Source: Diabrotica undecimpunctata (Eukaryota > Arthropoda > Insecta > Coleoptera > Chrysomelidae). Taken from it: a DNA stretch of 64,000 nucleotides. The stretch lies in NCBI RefSeq assembly GCF_040954645.1, contig NC_092810.1, positions 76,984,160 through 77,048,159 of the forward strand, given 5' to 3'. Shown in pieces: positions 19,456-32,430 of this stretch; positions within the stretch are counted from its first letter, which is position 1; each line of letters starts with the position of its first letter. A program made the translations under genes and the position numbers. The notes under the pieces were generated by a model, which was given only the letters and a program-made list of their open reading frames with translations, did no database searches and was not told where the DNA came from.

Positions 19456-20265
19456 TGTGCTTTCTTCTTATGATTGTTGTTGTTTAGTCTGGATTTTTTG
19501 AGTTGATAGATTAGTTGTATTTTCAATTGGGTCTATATTTGGAACTGGATTATTTGATGTTGAATTATCTGTTGTAATCGCGGTAGACATTGGGCAATTT
19601 TTTGTTAAGTGGTTGGTTTGCTTACATGTTTGGCAAGCTTGGTTATCTAATGATAGGCAAATCCTGTATATCGTTACAGGTAACAGGTACAAATCAGGTA
19701 AGGGCTGGTTATTTAGTGGAGATATGTATGTTTGGCGTCTGAAACTCAAAATATGCTGGAATTGTGGTGTTGATGTGTCTATTCTTAGGAATGTTATAGG
19801 TGACAGAAGATTTAATCCATGTGATTTTAATGCAGATATTAGGACTGAGTGTGGGATTGAGGGACAGACATTGGACAATACTAATCGCTGACTGGGGCTA
19901 ATTAGTCTACGAGCTTGTAAGAGTTGTTGGTTTATTTGAATTTTTTCATTTTTGTTTATAAAATCCTCGGCTAGTTTTTCGTTTGCTAAATATATACATA
20001 CTCTATTATTTGATAATTTTGAACAGAAGATGATCTAGTTTGGTTGTATCAAACAACTCAGAGCTGACAAGTAATCATCTAGTTTTGTATTTTCAATTGA
20101 ATAAAAAATAATTACTTGTTTTCTTGATAGAAATATAATTTTCTTGGTGGTGTTTGATTGGTTACGGAAGAATATGTAGGTGATCCATTAAATTGATTTG
20201 ATGAGCAGCTGTTTGGTGTATTATTAGTTGTAGGAATTTCAGATTGAATAGAACTATCCATTTTT
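19456..20265 (-). pseudogene. I-clade LINE ORF1 (Gag-like, CCHC knuckle)
   Basis: Minus strand. A likely start lies near 20,264 (MDSSIQSEIPTTNNTPN), followed by a low-complexity Ser/Asn/Pro stretch and a stop near 20,120. From about 20,040 the frame gives RVCIYLANEKLAEDFIN, LISPSQRLVLSNVCPSIPHS, and in 19,468-19,878 a CQTCKQTNHLTKNC knuckle (C-x2-C-x4-H-x4-C). This is the RNA-binding ORF1 protein of I-type LINEs. It is broken by one early stop and by the hAT insertion. Confidence 0.75.
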
Positions 20266-26790: not shown

Positions 26791-26794
26791 ATAC
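26791..26794. repeat. Target-site duplication ATAC (left) of the gypsy element
   Basis: ATAC precedes the left LTR and is repeated at 30,243-30,246 after the right LTR. A 4-bp duplication is normal for gypsy-type integration. Confidence 0.85.
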
Positions 26795-27077
26795 TGTAGC
26801 GTGATTAAATAAAACGAGCGGTTCGAATTTATATACATACATTTATTTATAACTTTACAGTTCGGTAGTATCTTAATAACTAACTCTACTTCTAAAATCG
26901 CGTCATATATATACCAAAAGTATTAAGTTCCAGAACATTCGGGAGTTGTCCCACCTCTAATTCGCCTACGTGACCTGTTGTTCTGTCTCTCACTCGATGG
27001 ATCTCGAAGCTTCTCGAGGTGTATTAGAGATGCAATGCAATCGTTACCTGGGCAATCTCGAAAGCATGTTCGTAACA
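26795..27077 (-). repeat. 3' LTR (283 bp)
   Basis: Identical to 29,960-30,242 except one base (GGGCAATCTC here, GGGCCATCTC there). Ends are TG...CA. In element sense it holds two palindromic nGAAnnTTCn/nTTCnnGAAn motifs, a TATA-like run and an AATAAA. Confidence 0.95.
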
Positions 27078-27090
27078 CTGCTCCCCTCTT
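27078..27090 (-). other. Polypurine tract
   Basis: On the minus strand AAGAGGGGAGCAG lies directly before the 3' LTR, the position of the plus-strand primer in LTR retrotransposons. It overlaps the stop codon of the macrodomain frame. Confidence 0.8.
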
Positions 27091-27685
27091 AAATCTGATC
27101 GTCCCGATCAGCAACTCTATATGTAGACACAGGATGGCGGAATCTACAGGACTCTCCAGCTCTGCATGAACCCTTTAGAAAGAAATAACAGTCTACTGAC
27201 TTTGAAGGATACGATTTCATCGGGTTAATGCAACACACAGTAATTCGTACGCCGGTTTCTCGGAAGATCACTTCAAGCATGCTTCTGACAATCTTCCAGT
27301 CCAGATTATCTAGTGCATGACCTATCTTGAGTAAGGCCAAATTCTTGATGTCGTAATTGCACACAATTTTCTTCAAATTAGTTAGAGCACGCCATATATC
27401 CTCGTAGCTTGCCCTGTCTGTATACGACTTCCTGGTCACCATATACATCAAAGATCGAGAACCATCTTCTAATCTCATTACTCTTCCAACTTTAGGCTGC
27501 TGGTTTTTTAACTCGTCCAAACGACCGAATTTCTTAAAAAATACGGATGAGATTCCTTTAGTCATCTCAAGATCTTGAGCAACACAGTGGGCTAGAGAGA
27601 CGTTATGCGGAACACTAAAAAGATCCTGCTGAACTTCTGTGGTTACGCCGAATCTAGCACTCTTTCTCTCTGCGTAATTTGTCAT
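27089..27685 (-). CDS. TARG1/OARD1-like macrodomain plus CCCH zinc-finger protein of the gypsy element
   Basis: 198 codons, fully open. Residues about 12-153 match the OARD1/TARG1 class of macrodomains: DLFSVPHNVSLAHCVAQD, then VFFKKFGRLDELKNQQ, an LMYMVTRKS strand, YEDIWRALTNLKKI, and LLKIGHALDNLDW. That family binds ADP-ribose and removes it from proteins. The Asp of the ALDNLDW block (D126), equivalent to the catalytic Asp, is kept. The catalytic Lys of the TKK motif in human TARG1 (from memory) aligns with Arg85, with Lys86 beside it. Residues 166-184 form a C-x7-C-x5-C-x3-H zinc finger (C166, C174, C180, H184), a class that usually binds RNA. The ATG overlaps the upstream stop as ATGA. 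It occupies the env position, but no signal peptide or membrane segment is present. Role inferred: ADP-ribose handling on RNA or host factors. Confidence 0.85.
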   Translation of the reverse strand: MTNYAERKSARFGVTTEVQQDLFSVPHNVSLAHCVAQDLEMTKGISSVFFKKFGRLDELKNQQPKVGRVMRLEDGSRSLMYMVTRKSYTDRASYEDIWRALTNLKKIVCNYDIKNLALLKIGHALDNLDWKIVRSMLEVIFRETGVRITVCCINPMKSYPSKSVDCYFFLKGSCRAGESCRFRHPVSTYRVADRDDQI

Positions 27686-29853
27686 AAATTCATTAAAGCT
27701 TGGTCGCCGGTCATCTTTGATCTCATGTTGAAGGGTTCGTGCTTCTTCTGTTTCATTTGAGCAAGACGATTTATGTGAACTACTTTTGGTTTACCTTTCG
27801 GCAACTTCTTAATTCGGTATATTACGTCATTTATTTTCTTTTTAATTTCATACGGACCTTCCCATTGTATTTGTAGTTTGGGAGACAAGCCTCGACGACG
27901 TTGTGGATTATAAAGCCAAACAAGATCACCTACTTCATAGCTTTCACTCTTGCATCGAGAATCATATTGATCTTTCATTCTGTCATTGGCTATCTGGATA
28001 TATTTATTTCCATCATTTGTCTCTGGAAGTGGACCTGCAATGTCGATTGCTACTCTTTCCATAGGACTACCAACATTGTACTGTTTCATGGGTGCCCCCT
28101 TTTTACCAGCTGGACCATTACTGGTTGCACACAGTTCACATTTCCGGCACCATCTTCTTACATCATCTTTACAGTTCACCCAATAGAACCGTTCTCGAAC
28201 CTTTTGCAGAGTCTTCGTGATACCAAAGTGTCCACCTGATGCACCGTCATGCAACTGACGCAATACTTCTGACACTTTACTTTTAGGTACAATTAACTGA
28301 AGCTTAGTTTCTGTACCATCATCGTTCTCAAAGGTTCTATACAGAAGATCATCTTTCAGTACTAGGCAATTCCATTGGCTCCAGTAACACTTAACTTCTG
28401 GACTACATGCACTAATGTCTTGCCAAGAAGGTCTTTCACTTTGACGCATCCAATCCAATACTCTTTTTATACATGGATCATCTGCTTGAGCGTCTTGTAG
28501 CTGTTGAGGCTGCCATTGCTCATTAATGACGGTGGTTCGTCTCACGGGGCAAAGTCGTTCTTCTAATTCAAGACAATGATTACGATTTGCACTGTATGGC
28601 CGTCTTGACTGAGCATCAGCATTTGAATGACTTTTTCCAGCCCTGTGTTTGATTTGTTCTAGCTTTCTGACTGTTGTATTATTTTCTTGCAATTTACGAC
28701 GAATGTGACCTACGTCGTTACCATTCCAACATCTGGGTTCACGTCTCTTCGGCATCATGTCACGAACTACTTTCCGTACGATTTCCTCCAGACGTTTTTC
28801 GTTTTGTTCGTCGCTCTCTTCAGAGGTTCGTACTCGATAGCTCCGTGAAAGTTGACTAGCTGTTTCATGTTCTAAGGCAATAGCGAGCGCTTCATCTAAA
28901 ACTTTCGGTCTTGCTAGTCGTAAAGCTTTCTGTAGTTCAATGTCTCTTAACCCATTGACGAAGGCATCTACAGCAATTTCTTCCAAAATGTTGTCTGGTA
29001 CCTCTGGATAGGCCAACAGCGCTATACGAGCAATATTTGCTTCAAATTCTTGCAAACTCTCACTTGCTCGTTGGATTCTACTTCTTATTTGTACTTTGTA
29101 GACTGGTTGTAGATGGGCATCTCCGTAACGTTTATCTAGTCGAGTGAACAAGGTCTGGTAACATTTTTCTTGACCCTTAGGAATTGATCTTAGGATATCC
29201 GCAGCATCACCTCGTAAAGCAGCAGTCAAGGACACAGCTTTTTCTTGTTCTGTCCAATGATTGGCTGTCGCAATAGCTTCAAATTGTCTAAGGTATATGG
29301 ACCAAGAGGACTTTCCATCAAATGGTGGCAATTTGAATCTCATATGATGTGTCATTTCGTCTCTCGGTGATTCTTCTTTCACTACCGGATCTAAGGCTAC
29401 CGTATTAACTGGTGGTAGCACTTTTGTGTTACTTATCATGGTCTCTAATTGTTTGATCTTCTCTTCTACTTTATCGAATGTTCTTGAGACTTCTTCAAAT
29501 TTCTCATTGTTTTGAATACATATTTCTTTAATTATTTGTGAAGTCTCGTCGAATCTTCTAAATACATTCTCGAATGTTTCATCGAATCTTTTGGGAACAT
29601 TCTCTAATTTATTATCATCTCTTTTAGAAGATTCTTCAATTTTTTTCGAGACATTCTCAAATTTTCCATCAATTATTTTCGTTAAAACTGCTTCTTCTGT
29701 TGATTGAAACTGGAATGTCTCTGGGTCTTCTCCATTCTTGTTAAGCACAGTCTTCAGTCGTTCTTGGAGTATCTTCTTGGACCCACTGCAGTCTTCATCG
29801 CGTTCTTCTAGCTGCTCACGCAACTGTTTTACTGACAGTTCTACTAGCAGCAT
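27682..29853 (-). CDS. Gag-integrase fusion polyprotein (gypsy), RT and IN core deleted
   Basis: 723 codons, open. Residues 4-38 look like a SAP DNA-binding motif (LSVKQLREQLEER). Residues 60-140 form a coiled coil of repeated KxFENV/RRFDETS units. Residues about 172-335 are a retrotransposon Gag capsid (LPPFDGKSSWSIYLRQFEAI onward). A zinc knuckle at 375-387 is degenerate (CWNGNDVGH; later Cys lost). At about residues 388-400 the frame jumps to the end of RNase H (AGKSHSNADAQSRRP), so protease, RT and most of RNase H are gone. The integrase zinc domain follows (H535, H542, C572, C575) and the first catalytic region (VAIDIAGPLP, D604). After GNKYI (about 619) the frame jumps past the rest of the core to DRMKDQYDS and a GPY-type C-terminal module (WEGPYEI, 664-670). 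Both joins keep frame. Confidence 0.9.
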   Translation of the reverse strand: MLLVELSVKQLREQLEERDEDCSGSKKILQERLKTVLNKNGEDPETFQFQSTEEAVLTKIIDGKFENVSKKIEESSKRDDNKLENVPKRFDETFENVFRRFDETSQIIKEICIQNNEKFEEVSRTFDKVEEKIKQLETMISNTKVLPPVNTVALDPVVKEESPRDEMTHHMRFKLPPFDGKSSWSIYLRQFEAIATANHWTEQEKAVSLTAALRGDAADILRSIPKGQEKCYQTLFTRLDKRYGDAHLQPVYKVQIRSRIQRASESLQEFEANIARIALLAYPEVPDNILEEIAVDAFVNGLRDIELQKALRLARPKVLDEALAIALEHETASQLSRSYRVRTSEESDEQNEKRLEEIVRKVVRDMMPKRREPRCWNGNDVGHIRRKLQENNTTVRKLEQIKHRAGKSHSNADAQSRRPYSANRNHCLELEERLCPVRRTTVINEQWQPQQLQDAQADDPCIKRVLDWMRQSERPSWQDISACSPEVKCYWSQWNCLVLKDDLLYRTFENDDGTETKLQLIVPKSKVSEVLRQLHDGASGGHFGITKTLQKVRERFYWVNCKDDVRRWCRKCELCATSNGPAGKKGAPMKQYNVGSPMERVAIDIAGPLPETNDGNKYIQIANDRMKDQYDSRCKSESYEVGDLVWLYNPQRRRGLSPKLQIQWEGPYEIKKKINDVIYRIKKLPKGKPKVVHINRLAQMKQKKHEPFNMRSKMTGDQALMNL

Positions 29854-29940
29854 CTTTGGTCAGGCACGCGTACTTTTTAAAATGTTAAAAAGTCTTTTTC
29901 AAAAGTCACTGCTGAATTTATATTTAAATAAATCAATTAT

Positions 29941-29958
29941 CCTCACACCGTAACACCA
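29941..29958 (-). other. Candidate tRNA primer-binding site
   Basis: One base inside the 5' LTR the minus strand reads TGGTGTTACGGTGTGAGG. It starts with TGG, as expected for pairing with a tRNA CCA end. I cannot assign the tRNA. Confidence 0.55.
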
Positions 29959-29959
29959 C

Positions 29960-30242
29960 TGTAGCGTGATTAAATAAAACGAGCGGTTCGAATTTATATA
30001 CATACATTTATTTATAACTTTACAGTTCGGTAGTATCTTAATAACTAACTCTACTTCTAAAATCGCGTCATATATATACCAAAAGTATTAAGTTCCAGAA
30101 CATTCGGGAGTTGTCCCACCTCTAATTCGCCTACGTGACCTGTTGTTCTGTCTCTCACTCGATGGATCTCGAAGCTTCTCGAGGTGTATTAGAGATGCAA
30201 TGCAATCGTTACCTGGGCCATCTCGAAAGCATGTTCGTAACA
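29960..30242 (-). repeat. 5' LTR (283 bp)
   Basis: See the 3' LTR; one difference in 283 bases. Promoter-like features in element sense: palindromes AGAAGCTTCG and GTTCTGGAAC, followed by a TATATATATG run. An internal leader of about 106 bases separates this LTR from the Gag start at 29,853. Confidence 0.95.
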
Positions 30243-30246
30243 ATAC

Positions 30247-32430
30247 TATACCTACAACGTAGCTGGTCTTATGGCCGTATTATGGAATTTACCTTTCAGT
30301 TTCGTAGGAAGCTTTCTATCATACAAGACATCACTTGCTTTTTCCATTTTATCCATCCTAATTTGACTACTATATCTCCATCTATTTCTCCATTGCTTTG
30401 TAACACTAAATCTAGGCTCCTACCTAAAACGATTTTTTTTTCAATAATTTCACCAAACATTACAACCTGATTTAAAGTGAAGTTGAAGTTGATTTTTAAA
30501 TGCACACTTTAGATACTTTGTTTTTGTCTGCCTTAGTTTTAGACCTTTTTGCTCAAGCACCCATCTCCATTGTCTCAATCATTAATTCAATTCTCTCTTC
30601 TTCTCTCTTACTAACACCACATGTTTTCGATAATATGTCCTTGACATGTTTTCGATAATTTTTCCAACACTAATTAGAAGAGATAAGGGATTAACACTGA
30701 CTCCTGATGCAATACTATTCTCAAATAAAATTTATCAGTCTTACCCTCACCTGTTCTAACATTAGTTTTCCATTACTTGCCTTATGATAAAAATTGCATC
30801 CGTTGTTGATTTGCCTTGCATGAATTTAAACTGATTTCCTAATATTTCTGTTTCTTCCTGTATCCTATCATCAATTATTCTCTCCCAGAGGTTCATGGTG
30901 TGACAGAGTAGTTTTAGGGCTCTATAGTTTGTACATAGTTTAACATCTACTTTGTTTTTGTATATAGGTACATAGTTGTACATAGTTTAACATCTACTTT
31001 GTTTTTGTATATAGGTACTAAAATGCTACTTCTCCATTCATCCGGTATTCGCCCCACTTTCATAATTCTATTAAATAGTCCTGTTAGCCAACTTTTTCCT
31101 GATTTTCCTAATACTGATCATATATATCCAGGGATGTCAGCAGGACCTATGCCTTTTCTTTTTTCATCTTATTAGCTTTAGCTCTTGAATACTTCCGCGG
31201 TCGTCATTTTCGGCACCATTGCTATTACTGTTTCTTTTGGCTCTATAGATGCTTTCTTAGTCTTAATTGGCCGTCAAAGAACTCCTTCCAGCGATTTTTT
31301 ACATCCTTTCCTTGCATAAATAGTTTATTGTATTTATCTCGTATACATTTAATCTGATTAAAATCTTTGGTTTTCTTTGCTCCACTTTTAGCAATTTTGT
31401 ATATGTTTTTTCTTAATATTCAGTTCATTGTATAGCTTTTCATACGCTAGTACCTTAGATTGTGCTACCGTTACTTTTGCTTCCTCATTATTTATTTGAT
31501 ACTTTTGATAATCTTAGTCTGATATATTTTCTTGCCCCTCCTTATATAACCTTCTCTTTTCTTTTATATTGTCTTAAACATCGTCTGACTACCTATATTT
31601 ACCAATTTTTAAGTCAATTTCCTGAGAATTTTCCAAGTATTTTAGTTGCACCCCCTTTAATAATTTTTGACACATTTCTCCAAATTTCATTATGACCTTT
31701 TTTCATGTTCCAATACCTTCTTTCTTCTATTTCTGTTCTAAATTAAACTTCTTTGTCGCTTGTTAACGTCAATTAATTCGTTTTGTGACTCACCTCGATA
31801 TTTTGGTTTTATTTCATGTTTTACTTATATCTAGTACCAGCACTTTATGCTGTTGGCTTACAGTTTCACTAATGATTACTTTAGAGTCTTTACATAAGGG
31901 ATTGGCTTACGATCCATATTTGGAATTGATTTTGTCTGCTTTTGAATTTGATAAGTTGGCTTTCTCTCTTCTAAAAGCATGTACTAACAGTGGCCATACC
32001 TAGTACTACTGCTGATTCCAACATATTATTTGCTGCGCTATTTCTAGTTCCAATGCCGTATCCTCCATCTATATGTTCATTTCATCTGTTTAGTTAGCCT
32101 ATATTAGCATTGAAGTTACCTTCTATTATAAGCTTTTTCTTAGTTGGAATATTTCTAAGTCTACCACCTAACTGATCATAGAAAGCTTTTCTTTTATCGT
32201 CACCTAGTCCCACATATGGTACATAATACATACTATATTCAACTTTTCTCTGTAAGTACAAATTTCACGGATATTATTCTGTTAGTCGTTTTTATCACGT
32301 TTACAACTTTCTCTTTTATATCTTTTTTAGCAAATACTCTTATACCTACGCAATTTGGATTCTTCTTCTTTTTGTGCAGCAACTAACGCCATTGTTTTAC
32401 TTGCTAAACTACAAAGATTATAAATTCTTG
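30247..32430 (-). pseudogene. Family-D LINE (RTE-like), 5' and central parts
   Basis: From right to left on the minus strand: degraded endonuclease at 32,000-32,350 (VGIRVFAKK, YAPQVG- and EGNFNAN-like pieces), a linker, then RT: IPIYKNKVDVKLCTNYRALKLL (30,762-30,983), EILGNQFKFMQGKSTTDAIF, and toward 30,300 a thumb block (DGW.KWRQ..VLYDRKLPTKLKGKF). The C-terminus is across the gypsy element at 26,395-26,790. Many stops. The 5' end is near 32,430, so the element was close to full length before decay. Confidence 0.75.

Follow-up and report, generated by a model that had tools for sequence, protein, structure and literature searches.

A TARG1-like macrodomain and a CCCH zinc finger behind the integrase of a beetle Ty3/Gypsy retrotransposon lineage

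The analysed window, a 64,000-nucleotide stretch of the genome of the beetle Diabrotica undecimpunctata (contig NC_092810.1, positions 76,984,160 to 77,048,159), contains a 3.4-kb Ty3/Gypsy element on the minus strand (26791-30246), bounded by two long terminal repeats (LTRs) and a 4-bp duplication, ATAC (Table 1). The element encodes a TARG1-like macrodomain followed by a CCCH zinc finger, and this module is almost certainly the C-terminal tail of the Gag-Pol polyprotein in a lineage of beetle Ty3/Gypsy elements, located behind the integrase C-terminal domain.

An earlier note, made from the DNA letters alone, had described an open frame of 198 codons in a Gypsy retrotransposon, encoding a TARG1/OARD1-type macrodomain fused to a CCCH finger with the ligands C166, C174, C180 and H184. 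The frame is indeed open, although on the minus strand; coding of 27089-27685 on the plus strand was rejected, since that reading is full of stops. The Gypsy context is confirmed by the LTR pair, the ATAC duplication and the SAP, Gag, integrase H2C2 and integrase C-terminal domains encoded upstream. The best PDB match of the module is human C6orf130 (E = 5.2e-27), and its fold and sequence kinship place it with TARG1/OARD1. The finger, with the four residues as described, matches Pfam PF00642 (25.9 bits, cut-off 20.5), and its part of the predicted structure model has low confidence. Of the two Pfam profiles proposed as a check, zf-CCCH thus scored above its cut-off but the Macro model was not listed for the window copy; among relatives, P0006 passes the Macro cut-off of 22 with a score of 24.1, and P0008 (21.6) and P0009 (20.7) are just short of it.

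The same note had placed the frame in the env position, as a separate frame after pol, and this part of the description was not upheld. Of 6067 candidates in a genome search the best 150 were scored, which over-represents intact frames and makes the copy number a lower bound; nine further copies, chosen by frame length, were read. In all nine the module ends a long frame in which ORF1 (open reading frame 1) and the macrodomain frame are one, and the candidate of a third, env-position frame was therefore rejected. Three copies have a Gag frame overlapping a 1414-aa Pol frame by 31 nt, three have a single 1857-aa frame, and three have internally deleted frames of 921/927 aa, a split that is no frequency for copies chosen by length. 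A regular-expression scan of the 31-nt overlap in the three copies found no canonical slippery heptamer. In copy L034, searched by pieces, Pfam matches follow the order SAP, Gag, protease (PR), RVT_1, RNase H, H2C2, rve, integrase C-terminal domain and CCCH, which is the Ty3/Gypsy order of Gag followed by PR, reverse transcriptase (RT), RNase H and integrase (IN). Among the best 150 candidates, 37 had frames of 1413/1414 aa, 12 of at least 1700 aa and 26 of 913-934 aa, and five had an internal stop; these counts are not population frequencies, because the best matches were scored.

Module-bearing copies with an open frame are thus present elsewhere in the genome, and the window copy is a young, non-autonomous, frame-broken one. 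Its ORF1 gave no Pfam match to PR, RT, RNase H or the integrase core, and these parts are missing apart from a piece of RNase H. Against L034 the window copy shows two large gaps, of 2103 and 525 nt, each divisible by three. Among the nine copies L039 is the closest, with 99.1% identity to the window copy over 2895 columns and one gap, and it retains one 927-aa frame through the module. Since the window copy carries a short deletion at the junction where the frame of L039 is open, its separate 'ORF2' represents damage to this copy. The two in-frame deletions define a non-autonomous class in which Gag remains joined to the integrase tail, macrodomain and CCCH finger, and the 26 frames of 913-934 aa have the length of this class. 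Across the nine copies the LTRs are 79-99% identical to the window LTR (three over a partial LTR) compared with 97-99% for the module, which suggests recombination among element subfamilies.

Relatives were sought by word-based searches limited by length, and the host range may therefore exceed beetles. The protein search returned 20 proteins including query rows, with Gonioctena, Pyrocoelia, Aquatica and Aromia as named sources outside Diabrotica. Ten polyproteins were found, nine of which (two from Callosobruchus) match the module profile at the C-terminus; related elements, for which the earlier note had proposed a search, thus exist, with the module at the end of a polyprotein. In P0010 and P0011 the integrase C-terminal domain is joined to the module. 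In P0003, P0005-P0008 and P0021-P0024 the reading continues past the finger into LRRGQCN-like residues; in the window the corresponding DNA comprises the polypurine tract and the start of the LTR, so by analogy the modules of these relatives probably also adjoin a 3' LTR. Viral contigs and prokaryote genome contigs yielded no confirmed relatives. Two beetle-type polyproteins, P0022 and P0026, carry the source names Klebsiella pneumoniae and Erysiphe pulchra, and most likely represent insect DNA in those assemblies.

On a macrodomain tree of 21 rows, 18 element rows stand opposite the three host-type rows (P0012 from Aromia, P0015 and human TARG1) with support of 100/99, which is consistent with one capture; within the element clade support is mostly weak and relations are mostly unresolved. 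P0012 and P0015 were judged to be host genes because they lack integrase sequence and because of where they fall in the tree. The sequences of P0014 and P0029, too short to be placed on it, are covered by the residue table discussed below. Two Diabrotica models named 'ADP-ribose glycohydrolase OARD1-like', P0001 and P0002, share 80 and 82% identity with the window module, and P0001 falls within the element clade; they are probably transposon pieces, and the finding bears on Diabrotica gene models with this label, at least on these two. The polyproteins P0026-P0028 continue beyond the macrodomain, show no CCCH match and form one nested clade on an RT-IN tree of 11 rows with P0030 (Pieris) as the sole long outgroup row, which points to a probable loss of the finger in that clade. 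Three other proteins indicate nothing firm about the finger: P0025 and P0029, whose sequences stop inside the macrodomain or shortly after it, and P0009, which gave no match to CCCH.

Selection was analysed in 59 Diabrotica copies (48 distinct), which were not drawn at random: the top rows of the genome search supplied 30, another 19 were chosen for open Pol frames, and 10 come from the upper rows of a second search. Changes found in at least two distinct sequences were counted as shared. In the macrodomain these comprise 9 non-synonymous and 23 synonymous changes against a site ratio of 3.53 (p = 2.7e-9), and singletons, which are mostly recent, are closer to neutral (48:29, p = 0.002); the p-values are optimistic, because copies share ancestry and linked events were treated as independent. 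In the copies whose Pol-macro frame is open (26), pN/pS is 0.11 for the macrodomain, 0.09 for RT, 0.06 each for RNase H and the integrase core, 0.19 for the integrase C-terminal domain, 0.34 for the linker and 0.81 for PR. Pairwise comparison of ten more divergent copies with two main-group copies gave macrodomain dN/dS of 0.04-0.59. These data indicate that the macrodomain is under purifying selection; the guess of a selected role in the earlier note holds up, and the ratio across copies, which it had proposed to measure, is not near 1 for the macrodomain. It is very improbable that the module is a passenger, i.e. captured host sequence carried without function. Open frames by themselves are weak evidence, as young copies are nearly identical and the genome search gave priority to the best matches; the shared changes, however, depart from neutrality and disfavour a functionless passenger, and conservation of active-site residues extends to relatives that share just 37-47% identity with the window module.

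The finger has CCCH spacing, and its ligands are intact in all 59 copies. Its shared changes are 2 non-synonymous and 6 synonymous (p = 0.0016; singletons 9:3); the spacer has 4:2 (singletons 7:3). A CCHC knuckle is present in Gag of all three scanned 1414-type copies (L031-L033), which have separate Gag and Pol frames, and is absent from L034 of the 1857-aa type and L039 of the 927-aa type; by eye, ORF1 of the window has the same broken stretch. The loss of the knuckle in the two fused or deleted copies scanned and, by eye, in the window copy is a lead for the role of the CCCH finger, which, together with the conserved ligands and the shared changes, would fit a module that mainly binds RNA or DNA, with the finger replacing the Gag zinc knuckle. 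As the principal function this is nevertheless improbable, given the fingerless nested clade P0026-P0028 and, in the 26 open copies, pN/pS of 0.59 for CCCH alone and 1.05 for spacer and CCCH, both from few changes.

The catalytic dyad of TARG1 is formed by Lys84 and residue 125, according to excerpts of PMC7050489 (which prints Glu125), PMC5087735 and PMC9411070. The retained catalytic Asp of the earlier note is present as D126, but an intact dyad in the window copy was rejected, since its partner at the Lys84 position is Arg, as it is in all 59 copies aligned. The Asp125 position holds Asp in 51 copies and Glu in eight, and the catalytic loop is Gly-His-Ala in 58 and Gly-His-Thr in L064. The Lys84-Asp125 pair that characterises the TARG1 class is thus absent from the copies of this genome, and the module is therefore regarded as TARG1 kin and is not classed as an active TARG1 enzyme; from the sequence, hydrolysis by the TARG1 route is doubtful in Diabrotica. 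The replacement is no proof of inactivity, since SCO6735, an ALC1-like macrodomain without Lys84 and Asp125 of TARG1, is still a hydrolase and requires Gln85, located at the Lys84 position, for its activity (PMC9411070, in the part consulted). Purifying selection has continued without the lysine, which suggests that Diabrotica retains a function that is not TARG1-type hydrolysis alone.

Of the 17 element proteins from outside Diabrotica that are readable at both positions, 15 have both residues (the 17 are not independent, as P0014 and P0018 are both from Aquatica), and TARG1-route hydrolysis appears likelier in these relatives. The exceptions are P0010, without the Asp, and P0011, without both residues; they have lost the Asp125 loop but kept the finger and the integrase C-terminal domain, a dyad loss besides that of Diabrotica. 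P0016, P0017 and P0029 cover one dyad position only, and P0004, P0019 and P0020 were left out of the residue table; P0004 (D. balteata) has Val at the Asp125 position, as read by eye.

The widely kept dyad would suit a counter-defence in which the module strips or masks host ADP-ribose on silencing factors, Gag or element RNA, as viral macrodomains do against PARP defence, and so would the in-frame junction of Gag with the module in internally deleted copies. Such marks can matter to retroelements, since ADP-ribosylation of KAP1 by SIRT6 aids L1 silencing (consulted part of the review PMC4695847). This role is possible but less likely than not: the catalytic Lys is lost in all Diabrotica copies read and the domain is still under purifying selection, and expression within Pol would yield little free protein. 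We also know of no PARP defence against retroelements in beetles, although no search was made, and this was counted against it. Shielding of Gag or RNA from ADP-ribosylation is likewise possible.

The explanation favoured as a whole, that the module as a Pol tail acts on ADP-ribose through integrase, is judged somewhat probable, and the integrase-linked ADP-ribose role, taken separately, has a little below an even chance. The module would be made only with Pol and so would enter the particle and the pre-integration complex alongside integrase, where it would act on ADP-ribose added by host transferases to chromatin, silencing factors, or cDNA or RNA ends. The ancestral action would be removal of ADP-ribose by the Lys84-Asp125 dyad; in Diabrotica, with Arg in place of the lysine, binding would be more probable than removal. 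The finger would contribute contact with nucleic acid. As a rather unlikely extension, an integrase-borne reader or eraser may let the element choose or clear insertion sites by ADP-ribosylated chromatin, e.g. at PARP-marked, open or damaged DNA. Several points weigh against the favoured explanation: the integrase link is deduced from position, and the element protease could release the module from integrase; Arg at the Lys84 position together with the changed catalytic loop could weaken ADP-ribose handling altogether; and the selection tests take changes in related copies as independent. The integrase-linked role, counter-defence and nucleic-acid handling are not mutually exclusive.

Three further traces of retroelements were noted in the window: an LTR piece of the same family at its edge (1-76, 92% identity over 76 bases), and two minus-strand remnants resembling retroelement coding sequence, at 19468-20034 (no Pfam match) and 30762-30986 (a weak match to RVT_1 that falls below the cut-off, E = 0.004).

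Table 1. Features of the Ty3/Gypsy element in the window, listed from its 5' to its 3' end
Feature	Position	Strand	Remarks
Target-site duplication ATAC, one copy	30243..30246	.	
5' LTR, 283 bp	29960..30242	-	1 difference from other LTR
Putative primer-binding site adjoining 5' LTR	29940..29958	-	read by eye
ORF1: Gag, remnant Pol and integrase tail, 725 aa	27682..29859	-	
SAP domain	29749..29841	-	PF02037, 25.2 bits
Gag (Retrotrans_gag)	28942..29223	-	PF03732, 29.6 bits
Integrase zinc-binding H2C2	28117..28290	-	PF17921, E 4.1e-21
Integrase C-terminal domain (p58_C), match extends to frame break	27760..27858	-	PF22938, E 2.3e-12
Short deletion site, frame shift between integrase tail and macrodomain	27762..27763	-	versus four other copies
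Macro-CCCH module, 198 codons	27092..27685	-	stop codon 27089-27091
TARG1/OARD1-like macrodomain, residues 12-153	27227..27652	-	Lys84 position = Arg85; Asp125 position = Asp126
CCCH zinc finger: C166, C174, C180, H184	27134..27190	-	
Polypurine tract adjoining 3' LTR	27078..27090	-	read by eye
3' LTR, 283 bp	26795..27077	-	
Target-site duplication ATAC, other copy	26791..26794	.	

A Gypsy element with a domain captured behind integrase is of a known kind, but a macrodomain with a CCCH finger in that place is apparently unreported, as a limited literature search of one open-access library found no report of a retrotransposon with a captured macrodomain. The data suggest that an LTR retrotransposon captured an ADP-ribose enzyme, and that the capture is selected and shared across the lineage. 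They offer an entry to the question of whether ADP-ribosylation restrains or guides insect retroelements, and natural proteins that either bear or lack the catalytic lysine are available for comparison. Viral macrodomains, such as that of alphavirus nsP3, are among the closest known systems. Compared with TARG1/OARD1 (C6orf130), a macrodomain hydrolase of the ALC1-like class, the beetle module is fused to Pol and a CCCH finger, and has Arg in place of Lys84 and, in nearly all copies, Gly-His-Ala in place of the Gly-Cys-Gly loop. SCO6735, also an ALC1-like macrodomain without Lys84, differs in being bacterial and acting on thymidine-linked ADP-ribose (PMC9411070, same part), and shows no more than that activity can survive the loss of Lys84. 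With respect to the element itself, the captured domain sits in the same slot, at the C-terminus of integrase, as the extra domain of chromoviruses. These are Ty3/Gypsy elements carrying a chromodomain at that end; here, unlike in chromoviruses, the captured domain is a macrodomain with a CCCH finger and its targeting role is hypothetical. If true, site choice through ADP-ribosylated chromatin would be the ADP-ribose counterpart of the chromodomain.
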